Part shown: positions 39,527-43,616 of the stretch, piece by piece | Layout: each line of letters begins with the position of its first letter | Position numbering within the stretch: the first letter of the stretch is position 1 | Origin: an uncultured Lachnospiraceae bacterium | Lineage (GTDB): Bacteria > Bacillota > Clostridia > Lachnospirales > Lachnospiraceae | DNA: 49,744 bases | Direction of reading: 5' to 3' | Assembly (NCBI GenBank): GCA_947626435.1 | Contig: CANQSB010000023.1 | Coordinates: 1-49,744 of the forward strand | The notes under the pieces: model-generated | The model's database searches: none | What the model saw: only the letters and a program-made list of their open reading frames with translations | What the model was told of the DNA's origin: nothing | Program-made: the position numbers and the translations under genes

Positions 39527-40045
39527 CTATTCGTCTATCGGGGTCCAGGCTTTTCCAAAATCTACATCCTTAAACAGCTGGGTAAGTCCCGTAAGCTGTT
39601 TGAGGCGCAGAAGTTCGTCCCTGTCCATGCCAAGGTGCTTTGCAATCCATGCGTCTGAGCGTCCGAGGTCGTTTAGCTCCTTGACGATATTGCTCATGAG
39701 GTCCACATCATGCGAGCCTCTTGCGCGGTTGTGGCGTATGGTGCTTGCCATACGCTGGTCGAGGGGCTTGTTAATGACGGACACAGGCAGCATGCCGTTT
39801 TCACGCTTGTATATGTCGGGATAATCGAGCATTATGCGGTATCTGTGAAAACCGTCGATTATTATGTAGCTGTCGTCGGAGTCGTCGTGGTAGCATACTA
39901 TCGGCATTGTGTAGCCGTCTTCCTTTATGCTGTCATAGAGGAGCTTCAGCTCCGGCGGGGCTACTGAGTTGGGATTGTAGTCGTTTGGCTTTATTTTGTC
40001 TATTGGGACGGAAATTATATTGTATACGGGACTTTTTTCGTTCAT
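39527..40045 (-). CDS. IbrB-like ParB-domain protein
   Basis: A 172-residue protein with an N-terminal ParB-like nuclease/CTPase fold. VPIDKIKPNDYNPNSVAPPE leads in, followed by the core IIDGFHRYR motif and RHNRARGSHDVDLMS, then a short HTH-like stretch (LGRSDAWIAKHLGMDRDELL). It lacks ParA and the long C-terminal dimerisation domain of chromosome-partitioning ParB. It follows the PAPS-reductase-like gene by 13 bases. This pairing is the layout of Escherichia coli IbrA and IbrB, described as activators of prophage-borne eib genes. The molecular role of such pairs is still unclear. Confidence 0.82.
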   Translation of the reverse strand: MNEKSPVYNIISVPIDKIKPNDYNPNSVAPPELKLLYDSIKEDGYTMPIVCYHDDSDDSYIIIDGFHRYRIMLDYPDIYKRENGMLPVSVINKPLDQRMASTIRHNRARGSHDVDLMSNIVKELNDLGRSDAWIAKHLGMDRDELLRLKQLTGLTQLFKDVDFGKAWTPIDE

Positions 40046-40058
40046 GCTGCTATGTGCC

Positions 40059-41405
40059 TCATTTCTTATTGGTTTTTTCTGATTTGCTGAGCTCTTCTAT
40101 GCCGCGGTATTTTTGCTTTAGGGCGTCTATCGCCTGCTGCTGTTGTCTTGTCAGTCCGAAGCCCATAAAGCGGCAGATGTGGTCGTTCTTCAAAATGCAG
40201 TAGCACATCCGCTTCCAGCTTGGTATATCCTTTGTGCTTTTGATGTCGTCCGTATTGTCAGGGATATCGCCTATAAATATTATGCGTGAGTATTTCATGA
40301 GGGTGTAGTTGGAAACGCCGTTGCGTTTTATTTTGTAGCCATGCTCTATCAGTTCGTTTATGGCTGTTTCGTCAAGACCGCCGCCTACCTTGTGCCAAAA
40401 TTCTATGGAGGTTTCAAATTTTTTTATGTAGTTATTTCGCAGACGCGCGGGCAGGGTGCTTAGGAGAAATTGGGTGTAGGATTCCCATGTGTGTCCATCC
40501 GGGAGCTTCAGGTTTCTGTAGCCCATTGCCTTGGTGCGTCCGTATATTGCGCCAAAGTTTGCGCCTCTTACCCGCCCGACAAGCTTCGCCCATATCTCCG
40601 GGTCAATCACGCGGTAGAGGTGCAGGCTTTCCTTGGCGTGGTCGTTAAACGGCGAGGCTACGCGCATCTGGTCCGGTGTCAGCCCTGCCATATAGTACAT
40701 GTCGTAGAGGCGGTTATAATCGTAGCCAAAGAGGTAATTGGCATGCCACACATCGCTTATTGTCCAGTCGTATATCGGGGAAGCGCACCATACATCCTTA
40801 AATTGTTTGGTAATCCAGCATTTGTCGTCATAGCCGTATTTTTTATTTAATATGCCGCTGTACCGCTGCAGGGACTCGTCGGCGCGTATACCCAAAAGGC
40901 AGACTGTCTTTTTGTAGTCATGCAGGGAGCGGTACCAGCGCCCGAACTGCTTTGCAAGGTCTTCCTGGTGCATTTTGTAGCGGTAGGTGGCGATTGGGTT
41001 ATTGTCGATATTTATTACATAAGGGTGCTTTGGCATAGGGCGTACCCATGCGTCTTTTTTGGTGTCGTCCCAAGGATACCAAAACATTTCATAGCTGCTC
41101 AGCGCTGTGCGCGTCGCCATGGGCAGGCATACCCAGTAGGGATATACATCGTCTTCTATGCGTTGGAAGGTGCGTTCTATGTATTCTGTGGTCATTGTGT
41201 ATTGGGCCTCGAAATCCTGATGGAATACGCCGATTTTTTTCTCGGGGTAATATTTCTTTTGAAAATCCAAGGTGAGGTTGAGGAGGAGTCCGCTGTCCTT
41301 GCCGCCGGAGAATGAGAGATAGATGTTGTCAAATTCCTCGAATATAAAGCGGAGGCGTTCCTGTAGGGCGTCGTATACATTTTGGGTTGAGTATTCGCGT
41401 TTCAT
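40059..41405 (-). CDS. IbrA-like PAPS-reductase family protein (DUF3440)
   Basis: A 448-residue protein. The N-terminal PP-loop ATP pyrophosphatase domain shows YLSFSGGKDSGLLLNLTLDF (about residues 29-48). The middle has ICLLGIRADESLQRYSG-like motifs (VCLLGIRADESLQRY) and the WTISDVWHANYLFGYDYNRLYD segment typical of adenylyl-sulfate or phosphoadenylyl-sulfate reductase-type enzymes. The C-terminal region (about 300-448) is DUF3440-like. The classic reductase catalytic cysteine motif is not evident. AGGTGA lies about 12 bases before the ATG. It is the first gene of a two-gene minus-strand unit with the ParB-like gene. Confidence 0.85.
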   Translation of the reverse strand: MKREYSTQNVYDALQERLRFIFEEFDNIYLSFSGGKDSGLLLNLTLDFQKKYYPEKKIGVFHQDFEAQYTMTTEYIERTFQRIEDDVYPYWVCLPMATRTALSSYEMFWYPWDDTKKDAWVRPMPKHPYVINIDNNPIATYRYKMHQEDLAKQFGRWYRSLHDYKKTVCLLGIRADESLQRYSGILNKKYGYDDKCWITKQFKDVWCASPIYDWTISDVWHANYLFGYDYNRLYDMYYMAGLTPDQMRVASPFNDHAKESLHLYRVIDPEIWAKLVGRVRGANFGAIYGRTKAMGYRNLKLPDGHTWESYTQFLLSTLPARLRNNYIKKFETSIEFWHKVGGGLDETAINELIEHGYKIKRNGVSNYTLMKYSRIIFIGDIPDNTDDIKSTKDIPSWKRMCYCILKNDHICRFMGFGLTRQQQQAIDALKQKYRGIEELSKSEKTNKK

Positions 41406-41543: not shown

Positions 41544-41774
41544 GGGGCGGCTTAGATATGTCTGCCGGGCATACCGAGGCATGGAAATGAGGATTTTCTA
41601 ATACAATGCGTTTAGGTGTTCTAAGACGGTCGGGGTACGGCGCAAGTCGCCTTCCATGGCTCCATGCGCCTCAATTTGCGTCCGTGCAAATTGCCCCCTT
41701 GGTGCATCAGCATTGTATAAGAAAATCCTCATTTCCAGCCTAGGTATTCCCGGCAGACATATCTAAGCCGCCCC
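41544..41774 (+). repeat. Long palindromic element, copy 1 (about 231 bp)
   Basis: The left arm (41544-41609) and right arm (41710-41774) are complementary over about 65 bases with a few mismatches and one bulge. Both begin and end in the GGGGCGGC / GCCGCCCC outer ends. The 100-base core (41610-41709) contains further hairpins: CAATTTGC / GCAAATTG (41672-41679 and 41686-41693) around a six-base loop, GGCG / CGCC, CATG / CATG, and a GGGG / CCCC helix (41632-41635 and 41695-41698). No transposase-like ORF lies inside. It could be a structured RNA gene or a non-autonomous mobile element. Confidence 0.85.
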
Positions 41775-41862
41775 TTTTACAAACTTTTAGAATGCTGGTG
41801 CGAGTGAGGAAATGGTCTTGTTCCCTTACAAGCAAAAAAAAGGAAAGCATTCCGATAACCAG

Positions 41863-42085
41863 AAAACGCCGAGGGAAGTTTGCGGCATGCCCAGGCGAGA
41901 ATGGGAGATTTCCTTATGCAATGCTGAAGCACCTAGAGGCCAATTTGCATGGACGCAAATTGAGGCGCATGGAGCCATGGAAGGCGACTTGCGCCGCGCC
42001 TCGACCGTCTGAGAACACCTAAACGCATTGCATTAGGAAATCCCCATTCTCGCCTCAGTATGCCGCAAACTTCCCTCGGCGTTTT
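41863..42085 (-). repeat. Long palindromic element, copy 2 (about 223 bp, inverted)
   Basis: This is the reverse-complement copy of the element at 41544. The arms are 41863-41924 and 42025-42085; the outer 26 bases (starting AAAACGCCGAGGG) are perfectly complementary. The core (41925-42024) is 91% identical to the copy 1 core by hand count (9 differences in 100) when read on the minus strand. The arms differ more from copy 1 than the cores do, but stay complementary to each other. The outer arm ends share little sequence with copy 1. Confidence 0.85.
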
Positions 42086-42140
42086 CGTCCCCCCGCCAAT
42101 CCCCTTTCATATCCCAATTTCCCCCTTGCCAAATCCTGAA

Positions 42141-42146
42141 TATAAT
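42141..42146 (+). promoter_or_regulatory. -10 element upstream of the purF-like gene
   Basis: A consensus TATAAT lies 58 bases before the start codon. No good -35 is present at the matching distance (the region is C-rich), so activity may depend on an activator. Confidence 0.4.
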
Positions 42147-42203
42147 GCTACTGTTAATTTATGCAACAAAACAAAACACAAAAACCAAAAACGGAGGAAA
42201 CCA

Positions 42204-43616
42204 ATGGGGGGATTTTTTGGAGTAGCATCAAAACATGACTGCGTATTTGACTTATTTTTCGGGACGGATTATCACTCGCATCTGGGCACAAGACGCGGCG
42301 GCATGGCAGTATACGGGGAAAACGGCTTTGACCGCTCAATCCACAATATCGAAAACTCGCCTTTTCGCACCAAATTCGACAAGGACATGCAGGAAATGAA
42401 AGGCTGGTACGGCATAGGCTGTATATCAGATTTTGAACCGCAGCCCTTGATTGTACGCTCACATCATGGTACATACGCATTGACGACAATCAGCAAAATC
42501 AACAACATGGACGAGCTCGCGAAGCTCCTGTTTGACAGTGGATATTCGCACTTTTTGGAAATGAGTGGTGGTGACATCAATGCTACGGAAATGATAGCCG
42601 CACTCATAAACCAAAAGGAAAATCTGATAGACGGCATACATTACGCGCTTGAAATGGTAGACGGCTCAGTTTCAATCCTGCTGATGAATAAGGCAGGCAT
42701 CTACGCCGCAAGGGATAAATACGGCAGGACGCCGATAGTAATAGGAAAAAAAGAGGACGCTTTCTGCGTTTCGTTTGAAAATTTCGCATACAAAAATCTG
42801 GGCTATGCCGACTATAAGGAATTGGGCGCGGGAGAAATCGCCGTCATAACGGAAGACAAATGCGTTACTTTGGTGAATCCAAATAAAGAAATGAAAATCT
42901 GCACATTCCTGTGGGTGTATTACGGCTATCCGTCAAGTTCTTATGAGGGCGTGGGAGTGGAAAACATGCGCTATAGATGCGGGCAGAAAATGGCACAGCG
43001 CGACAATGTAAAGTCCGACATAGTCGCGGGCGTACCGGACTCAGGTACGGCACACGCGATAGGTTATGCGAACGAATCAGGCATACCGTTTTCAAGACCG
43101 TTTATCAAATACACGCCGACATGGCCGCGCTCATTTATGCCTACAGTACAGAGCCAGCGCAATCTAATTGCCAAGATGAAGCTGCTCGCGGTGGAGGAGC
43201 TTATCAGGGACAAAAGCCTGCTGCTGATTGACGATTCAATAGTGAGAGGCACGCAGCTTAGGGAAACCACAGAGTTTTTGTACCAGAGCGGAGCTAAGGA
43301 GGTACATATACGCCCCGCGTGTCCTCCGCTGCTTTATGGCTGCAAATACCTCAACTTTTCACGCTCGTCGTCGGAGATGGACCTTATCACAAGACGCGTG
43401 ATAGACAGGCTCGAAAACGGAAATGTGACGGACGAGGCGCTCGCGGAGTACGCCAATCCCGAGTCGGAAAAGTACGGGCGGATGGTAGAGGAAATCCGCA
43501 AAGAGCTCAACTTTACCACGCTCAGATTCAACAGGCTTGACGATATGCTTGACGCTGTGGGTATCGAAAAAGACAGGCTCTGTACCTACTGCTGGACAGG
43601 CGACGAGGGAAAATAG
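42204..43616 (+). CDS. PurF-like amidophosphoribosyltransferase paralogue without the N-terminal cysteine
   Basis: The 470-residue protein has the PurF two-domain layout: an N-terminal Ntn-hydrolase glutaminase-like domain and a C-terminal phosphoribosyltransferase domain with the PRPP loop LLLIDDSIVRGTQLRET and a terminal CTYCWTGDEGK tail. In true PurF the mature chain begins with the nucleophile Cys of MCGIFG; here it reads MGGFFGVASKHDC, so the Cys is Gly. It cannot hydrolyse glutamine by the usual mechanism. It may use free ammonia, act as a regulator or have another role. GGAGG at 42192-42196 supports the ATG at 42204; the longer frame upstream crosses the repeat region and has no ribosome binding site. 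Confidence 0.85.
   Translation: MGGFFGVASKHDCVFDLFFGTDYHSHLGTRRGGMAVYGENGFDRSIHNIENSPFRTKFDKDMQEMKGWYGIGCISDFEPQPLIVRSHHGTYALTTISKINNMDELAKLLFDSGYSHFLEMSGGDINATEMIAALINQKENLIDGIHYALEMVDGSVSILLMNKAGIYAARDKYGRTPIVIGKKEDAFCVSFENFAYKNLGYADYKELGAGEIAVITEDKCVTLVNPNKEMKICTFLWVYYGYPSSSYEGVGVENMRYRCGQKMAQRDNVKSDIVAGVPDSGTAHAIGYANESGIPFSRPFIKYTPTWPRSFMPTVQSQRNLIAKMKLLAVEELIRDKSLLLIDDSIVRGTQLRETTEFLYQSGAKEVHIRPACPPLLYGCKYLNFSRSSSEMDLITRRVIDRLENGNVTDEALAEYANPESEKYGRMVEEIRKELNFTTLRFNRLDDMLDAVGIEKDRLCTYCWTGDEGK

Follow-up and report, generated by a model that had tools for sequence, protein, structure and literature searches.

REPs are found close to the 3' ends of ORFs and frequently form dimers of opposite orientation with spacers of 20–100 bp (PMC3733652). 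Those of the CGTC type are mostly head-to-head dimers with CCA tails and have no known dedicated transposase (PMC3733652). The TwoAYGGAY family (RF01731, clan CL00106) was described in 2010; the taxa listed are human gut, gammaproteobacteria and Clostridiales, and the table entry 'y, n, n' stands for probably RNA, probably not cis-regulatory and probably not a riboswitch (PMC2864571). Rfam assigns it the type Cis-reg, and the Rfam 15 paper names it among the families with an R-scape-improved structure (PMC11701678). The literature retrieved under the family name states no function in its accessible text. Template switching between the arms of a palindrome is reported to generate as well as restore stems in a single step (PMC8794818).

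The window, the whole stretch of 49,744 nucleotides of an uncultured Lachnospiraceae bacterium that was analysed, contains two large palindromes, copies A and B. They form a divergent doublet of TwoAYGGAY, which probably acts as a large REP-like (REPIN/BIME-like) palindromic DNA repeat. Slashes in motifs mark stem edges; the features are as follows.

40059..41405, minus strand: ibrA-like gene (PAPS_reduct and DUF3440 domains); copy A points at its start side
41544..41774 (231 nt), minus strand: copy A, whole hairpin (Rfam 87.5 bits, inverted repeats, edges by fold)
41577-41742, minus strand: copy A, RF01731 match (Rfam, 87.5 bits)
41710-41774 (5'-side arm), 41544-41609 (3'-side arm) and 41610-41709 (core), minus strand: parts of copy A
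Edges of copy A: degenerate feet, without CCA and without GTCC (read from sequence)
41775..41861 (87 bp): spacer of the divergent doublet, between hairpin edges
41852..41861, plus strand: copy B, 5' foot, CCGATAACCA, a leader variant with one mismatch to the motif CCAAYAMCCA found in other copies
41862..42086 (225 nt), plus strand: copy B, whole hairpin (Rfam 83.7 bits, inverted repeats, edges by fold)
41892-42056, plus strand: copy B, RF01731 match (Rfam, 83.7 bits)
41862-41924 and 42025-42086 (arms) and 41925-42024 (core), plus strand: parts of copy B
42087..42090, plus strand: copy B, 3' foot GTCC, directly abutting the stem (TTTTC/GTCC)
42204..43616, plus strand: purF-like gene (GATase_7; phosphoribosyltransferase just under cut-off); copy B points at its start side

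Both Rfam matches cover model positions 1–168 (cmscan, Rfam 15), and the curated cut-off of RF01731 is 43 bits. The sequence-only reading had taken the element for a novel one. This claim fails because both copies belong to a known Rfam family, and a new family is thereby ruled out. MIR1858 and TeloSII_ncR33 scored far under their own cut-offs. Both copies have two AYGGAY-type hairpin loops inside a long closing stem; aligned to the consensus, the loops read ACGGAC and ATGGAA in copy A and ATGGAC and ATGGAA in copy B, AYGGAA being a variant. No partner family of clan CL00106 was detected at the gathering threshold in 20 loci. The element itself is already known. New are a stem extension of about 30 nt per side, a single doublet orientation, a bias towards convergent genes at the 3' edge and arms that change in concert.

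An inverted-repeat search confirmed the two inverted palindromes that had been read from the letters, with 231 nt for A and 225 nt for B (about 230 nt). The core at 41610-41709 and the inverted second core are identical at 91 of 100 positions, the same value as in the earlier hand count. Between the copies runs an inverted repeat of 165 nt with 86% complementarity. The same search found arms of 37 and 28 nt within copy A (95–96% complementary) and of 44 and 21 nt within copy B (90–93%). Compared with shuffled sequence, the inner parts of A and B fold with z-scores of -8.3 and -4.7, and none of 200 shuffles equalled either. The gene-free region was also sized correctly: about 800 bp separate the start of the ibrA-like gene (41405, minus strand) from that of the purF-like gene (about 42204, plus strand). 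ORFs in this gap are short ones and a mechanical ORF, 42060-43616, which is the purF-like frame running upstream into copy B. An empty site at the window locus was sought in 13 purF-like loci (L046-L058) and not found; 11 of them matched, each at the gene start only, so the upstream DNA is not collinear. At 39527-41405, a ParB-domain gene adjoins the PAPS-reductase/DUF3440 gene, forming an ibrB/ibrA-like pair. Weak matches to DndC and BrxP concern the PAPS-reductase/DUF3440 gene only and not the ParB-domain gene.

The stem extends beyond the Rfam model. In 17 of the 19 copies of the own genome (G000), it exceeds the model by 27–34 nt on each side (edges by fold), and the whole hairpin measures 222–236 nt; in the other two, the fold continues into the flanks, 42–47 nt beyond the model. 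Arm sequences beyond the model differ between copies. Many own copies have sharp edges of the form CCAAYACCCA/GAA-stem ... stem-TTC/GTCC, and others have a variant leader. At up to three mismatches, the genome contains 18 occurrences of the 3' motif, against two of a reversed control. By eye, the feet look similar to the core's internal loop (AACACCYAG ... CGTCCGCMTTAGAACACCTA), as though the hairpin consisted of two nested modules of one design. Beside a TwoAYGGAY doublet, at L295:6565-6830 (G000:C5) and L330:1690-1800 (CANQPM), arm end and leader together recur as several imperfect tandem repeats; about 2 kb more lie between the members of this C5 doublet in CANQPM.

TwoAYGGAY is a dispersed, patchy, multi-copy palindromic repeat. 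Further copies, which the sequence-only reading had set as a test of its element, were found: the own genome contains 19, all full-length and over the curated cut-off. Seven of the 24 genomes searched in the genus, own included, have the family, with 1, 6, 6, 13, 13, 19 and 43 copies (G000 19, G008 6, G009 6, G011 43, one of the 43 being under the cut-off). Many of the G011 matches are located at contig ends (e.g., C17, C125, C151, C157 and C170), which is expected if near-identical copies break the assembly. No TwoAYGGAY was present in any of 16 genomes searched in other families of this order. Of 391 genomes sampled from the class, 36 (own included) had a match, 27 of them over the cut-off, often with several copies per genome, a number that is a lower bound since at most seven candidates were scored in each. 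A pattern scan of a named collection detected the uncultured Lachnospiraceae genomes CANQHZ, CANQPM and CANREB, all from 'Lapin' samples, presumably rabbit. CANQHZ has the same contigs as G017, and CANQPM represents a third close species. Collections of plasmids and phages yielded no TwoAYGGAY match.

Doublets have one orientation. Among 101 places in the genus, 11 pairs are closer than 1 kb, among them that of the window and its G017 counterpart, and all 11 are arranged minus-then-plus with their 5' sides facing. Genes around the copies were taken from ORFs called by a simple script, for 99 copies; of the 101 places, the table leaves out G009:C88 and G011:C169, the latter below the cut-off. 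On their 3' side, 63 copies have a convergent gene as nearest neighbour and 31 a same-strand gene, and five have none (63 versus 31 of 94, p 0.001). Copy B was entered as 'same, 3 nt', an artefact of the ORF caller, and is still counted as 'same'; the purF-like start is about 148 nt from its Rfam end. Twelve own copies lie no more than 82 nt from the end of a convergent gene. Of 23 copies from other genera of the class, 15 face a convergent and eight a same-strand gene, which alone is not significant.

The window pair is an exception, with each copy directed at the start of a divergent gene. Such a position, upstream and on the same strand, is that of a cis-regulatory element; it applies to both window copies and not to the copies as a whole. 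A leader RNA for each divergent gene would fit the window, but this idea does not suit the copies overall, with their 63 convergent and 31 same-strand genes. More generally, TwoAYGGAY could be a genuine structured RNA, trans-acting or cis-regulatory, with a covariation that reflects selection on RNA pairing. We consider this rather unlikely. The Rfam family with its conserved AYGGAY loops and internal loop speaks for it and against a DNA repeat, as does the leader-like direction of both window copies; against it stand the small share of copies with a same-strand gene on the 3' side, the diversity of the neighbouring genes and the entry 'cis-reg: n' in the 2010 table (PMC2864571).

Wobble pairs and strand bias were compared with those of 30 T-box leaders from the same genomes. 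GU pairs constitute 4–5% of the folded pairs in TwoAYGGAY and 17% in the T-box leaders, an amount of wobble that is low for an RNA. The own strand of the T-box leaders folds better in 30 of 30 cases. With flanks, the annotated strand of TwoAYGGAY folds better in 59 of 95 copies; the strand test covered 95 of the 99 copies, and those short of flank are also absent from the arm-pair count. The bias is inconstant. The annotated strand is better in 2 of 19 copies in G000 and 2 of 12 in G017, together only 4 of 31, but in 37 of 39 in G011, 4 of 5 in G009, 10 of 13 in G019 and 4 of 6 in G008, as well as in 20 of 23 copies from other genera of the class. The values of G011 and of the other genera are RNA-like and argue against a DNA repeat. 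Arm pairs, counted crudely, comprised 55 GU and 61 AC outside the model and 71 GU and 32 AC inside it; the latter excess is likewise a point for an RNA. The stems beside the AYGGAY loops (64 unique stems) had 421 Watson-Crick, 6 GU and 5 AC pairs, after a preselection for at least five Watson-Crick pairs of seven that lowers both kinds of mismatch. GU, AC and strand data thus leave the outer arms without an RNA-strand signature, whereas the part inside the model has one in several lineages. An RNA role as a 3'-UTR stabiliser, a terminator or a protein-binding RNA is possible. On balance, we lean towards a DNA-level repeat.

Judged from alignments, the arms of orthologous copies evidently change in concert. 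An alignment of 30 hairpins from G000 and G017 has double changes at each of the 21 outer pairs and a one-sided switch to a different standard pair in only three cells. A comparison across G000, G017 and CANQPM covered eleven orthologous elements. The 5' arm at the MATE site has the same form in G017 and CANQPM; G000 departs from it by six clustered changes, and this 6-base change makes its 5' arm complementary to its own 3' arm. In C2a of CANQPM, polarised by the neighbouring copy C2b, one arm seems to be rewritten from the other in the same way, with five substitutions and one inserted base. Six changes, made on both arms, separate copy B from its orthologue in G017. The galT site and others hardly differ between orthologues.

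Among changed Watson-Crick pairs, 13 comparisons of orthologues gave 38 double changes, 10 GU, 16 AC and 21 other, and the T-box control (six pairs) gave 2 double changes, 20 GU, 9 AC and 9 other. Double versus single changes differ between the two sets with a Fisher p of 3e-6 under one rule for both, where the ibrA doublet contributes 26 of the 38 doubles, both directions are counted and cells are not independent. A simpler count gave no contrast (50 single and 16 double changes versus 12 and 4 in the T-box), with a control picked by two-sequence consensus folding, which favours standard pairs. The contrast therefore depends on the counting rule, and the double-to-single ratio of the simpler count, resembling that of the T-box, is a further point for a structured RNA.

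Copies with private yet complementary arms would be explained by template switching between the arms. The hairpin would fold in single-stranded DNA during replication. The polymerase would switch its template from arm to arm and rewrite one arm as the complement of the other. Each copy would acquire a private arm sequence with complementarity retained, and the palindrome would sometimes be deleted; it often lies at synteny breaks. The suggestion of a structured RNA family, made from the letters, agrees with the label of Rfam, but the covariation behind it can also be accounted for at the level of DNA. Tentatively, TwoAYGGAY may not primarily be an RNA but a large REP-like mobile DNA hairpin, with a covariation, the chief reason for its classification as an RNA, produced by DNA template switching between the arms; we regard this as quite possible.

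Four sites that lack the hairpin in G017 were aligned to G000. By eye, two keep part of one arm and thus look like deletions. The third is an intergenic replacement without clear remnant. At the fourth, L294:6341-8410 (G000:C2), 2.07 kb with two direct TwoAYGGAY copies correspond to 84 bp in G017. Between these copies lies a 330-aa gene, acyltransferase-like as judged from its CANQPM orthologue, and both copies are also present in CANQPM. Gene-plus-hairpin blocks had suggested an attC-like cassette; this idea was dropped, and integron core sites were sought by eye. In at least five comparisons, collinearity stops within about 60 nt of the 5' foot: at tyrS, MBOAT and galT between G000 and G017, and at C24 and the C5 doublet between G000 and CANQPM.

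The DNA repeat could have moved as a MITE, i.e., a non-autonomous element with terminal inverted repeats that is mobilised in trans by a DDE transposase. For six of 84 tested copies, all from G009 and G019, both ends are within six mismatches of ATTAGGGTGTCAAAAGGT, compared with none of 213 random windows. A 9-bp direct repeat is flush with the element at G009:C34, and one of 6–7 bp was found at G019:C75. Copies without enough flank were left out of both the terminal-end and the direct-repeat test. These terminal-repeat-like ends with the flush direct repeat hint at true transposition and are its best sign. In the subfamily of the window, no end sequence common to the copies emerged from the alignment of 30 hairpins, and the outer arms vary from copy to copy in G000 and G017. 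Direct repeats of at least 8 bp at 7 of 29 G000/G017 copies compare with about 3.5 expected by chance and are not flush; target-site duplications, which the sequence-only reading had proposed to look for, were not found in the window's subfamily. Two of the four G017 sites look like deletions, another point against a MITE. The MITE-like origin considered earlier thus suits the six copies of G009 and G019 and not the subfamily of the window; for the family, we deem it unlikely.

Two other elements of these genomes provide some support for this explanation. A 158-bp element with GTGTCAAAAG-type ends at L168:380-538 (G000:C6) is a clean insertion relative to the orthologous G017 site, and ends like these bracket some TwoAYGGAY copies of G009 and G019. 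A second palindrome of about 165 bp with the ends TAGGYAWTTGCGAAA ... TTTCGCAATTACCTA is located at L164:252-394 (G000:C3) and at many places in G000 and G017, with several tens of copies per genome (80 and 81 matches, both strands matching per copy). It has a flank motif similar to the internal loop of TwoAYGGAY. Direct repeats of 9–14 bp at the edges of 13 of 46 copies (null 2.6%) make it look like a recently mobile MITE; 48 rows were aligned, one of them a partial chance row, and 46 entered the direct-repeat test. A palindrome of about 134 bp at L244:203-335 (G000:C50) is missing at the orthologous site of G017.

A type II RM pair, a 709-aa D12 methyltransferase and a 666-aa AlwI-type endonuclease, is encoded at L282:7978-13001 (G000:C3:99977-105000). 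It is flanked by 299-bp direct repeats with 96% identity, each containing a TwoAYGGAY copy. G017 and CANQPM have one TwoAYGGAY copy and no RM genes at this site, which points to an insertion with a long target duplication.

The hairpin could also be a substrate of a single-strand (HUH, Y1) transposase, as GTAG REPs are for RAYTs. The asymmetry of the feet, with CCA at the 5' and GTCC at the 3' side, the doublets and the position behind genes are reminiscent of REPs, and Y1_Tnp (PF01797) is present in the carriers G017, G019 and G023. It is absent from the own genome G000 and from G008 (66% complete), G009 and G011, which have 19, 6, 6 and 43 copies; the enzyme may have been lost or have diverged strongly. 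Of eight searched genomes without copies, five contain it. A transposase missing from the own genome and three other carriers does not support the single-strand transposase substrate suggested from the letters, and we consider it very unlikely. A mobiliser of TwoAYGGAY was not found; this, like the lack of target duplications in the window's subfamily, counts against the REP-like DNA repeat.

If TwoAYGGAY is a mobile DNA hairpin with arms rewritten by template switching, other orphan 'RNA' families that rest mainly on covariation could be alike. Their hallmarks would be double changes that lack wobble steps and an absent strand bias. TwoAYGGAY should then lose the type 'cis-regulatory', and orphan families of a similar kind should be examined anew. 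By itself, compensatory change does not have to imply selection on an RNA. Gene orientation, doublets, polarised arm rewriting and the wobble share relative to the T-box make the reading as a DNA repeat concrete and testable.

With RF01731, the elements share full-length matches over the cut-off (19 of 19 own copies) and two AYGGAY-type loops; paired arms extend the unit here beyond the model by about 30 nt per side. Doublets, the position behind genes and concerted arms are absent from the accessible text of the source papers (PMC2864571, PMC11701678). Some relatives, in G009 and G019, share with MITEs a core between terminal-repeat-like ends and a direct repeat, whereas the window's subfamily has neither shared ends nor an excess of flush direct repeats. 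Template-switch (quasipalindrome) mutation has in common with the changes seen here the multi-base rewriting of one arm into the complement of the other; the literature concerns RNA genes (PMC8794818), and here the mutation would affect a dispersed repeat that has so far been known as no more than a candidate RNA.

REP, REPIN and BIME elements, especially the CGTC-tagged ones, are likewise dispersed, intergenic and near the 3' ends of ORFs (PMC3733652). Like CGTC REPs, TwoAYGGAY has opposite-orientation dimers with the GTCC foot outside and CCA on the inner foot; REPs measure 20–40 bp, in contrast to about 230 nt here, and Clostridia and Firmicutes are not named in the accessible text of the CGTC-REP paper (PMC3733652). 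All 11 pairs below 1 kb match the head-to-head dimers of REPs with the tags outside. Unlike REPs, TwoAYGGAY has a branched core with two hairpins. The tags CCA/GAA ... TTC/GTCC of many own copies, degenerate in copy A, are seemingly reversed in side, and the CGTC-like foot presumably lies on the opposite side of the hairpin from that of dRS3. In the open-licence literature searched, no treatment of TwoAYGGAY as REP-like was found. We claim no REP membership for TwoAYGGAY; from these likenesses, we infer that it works like a REP.
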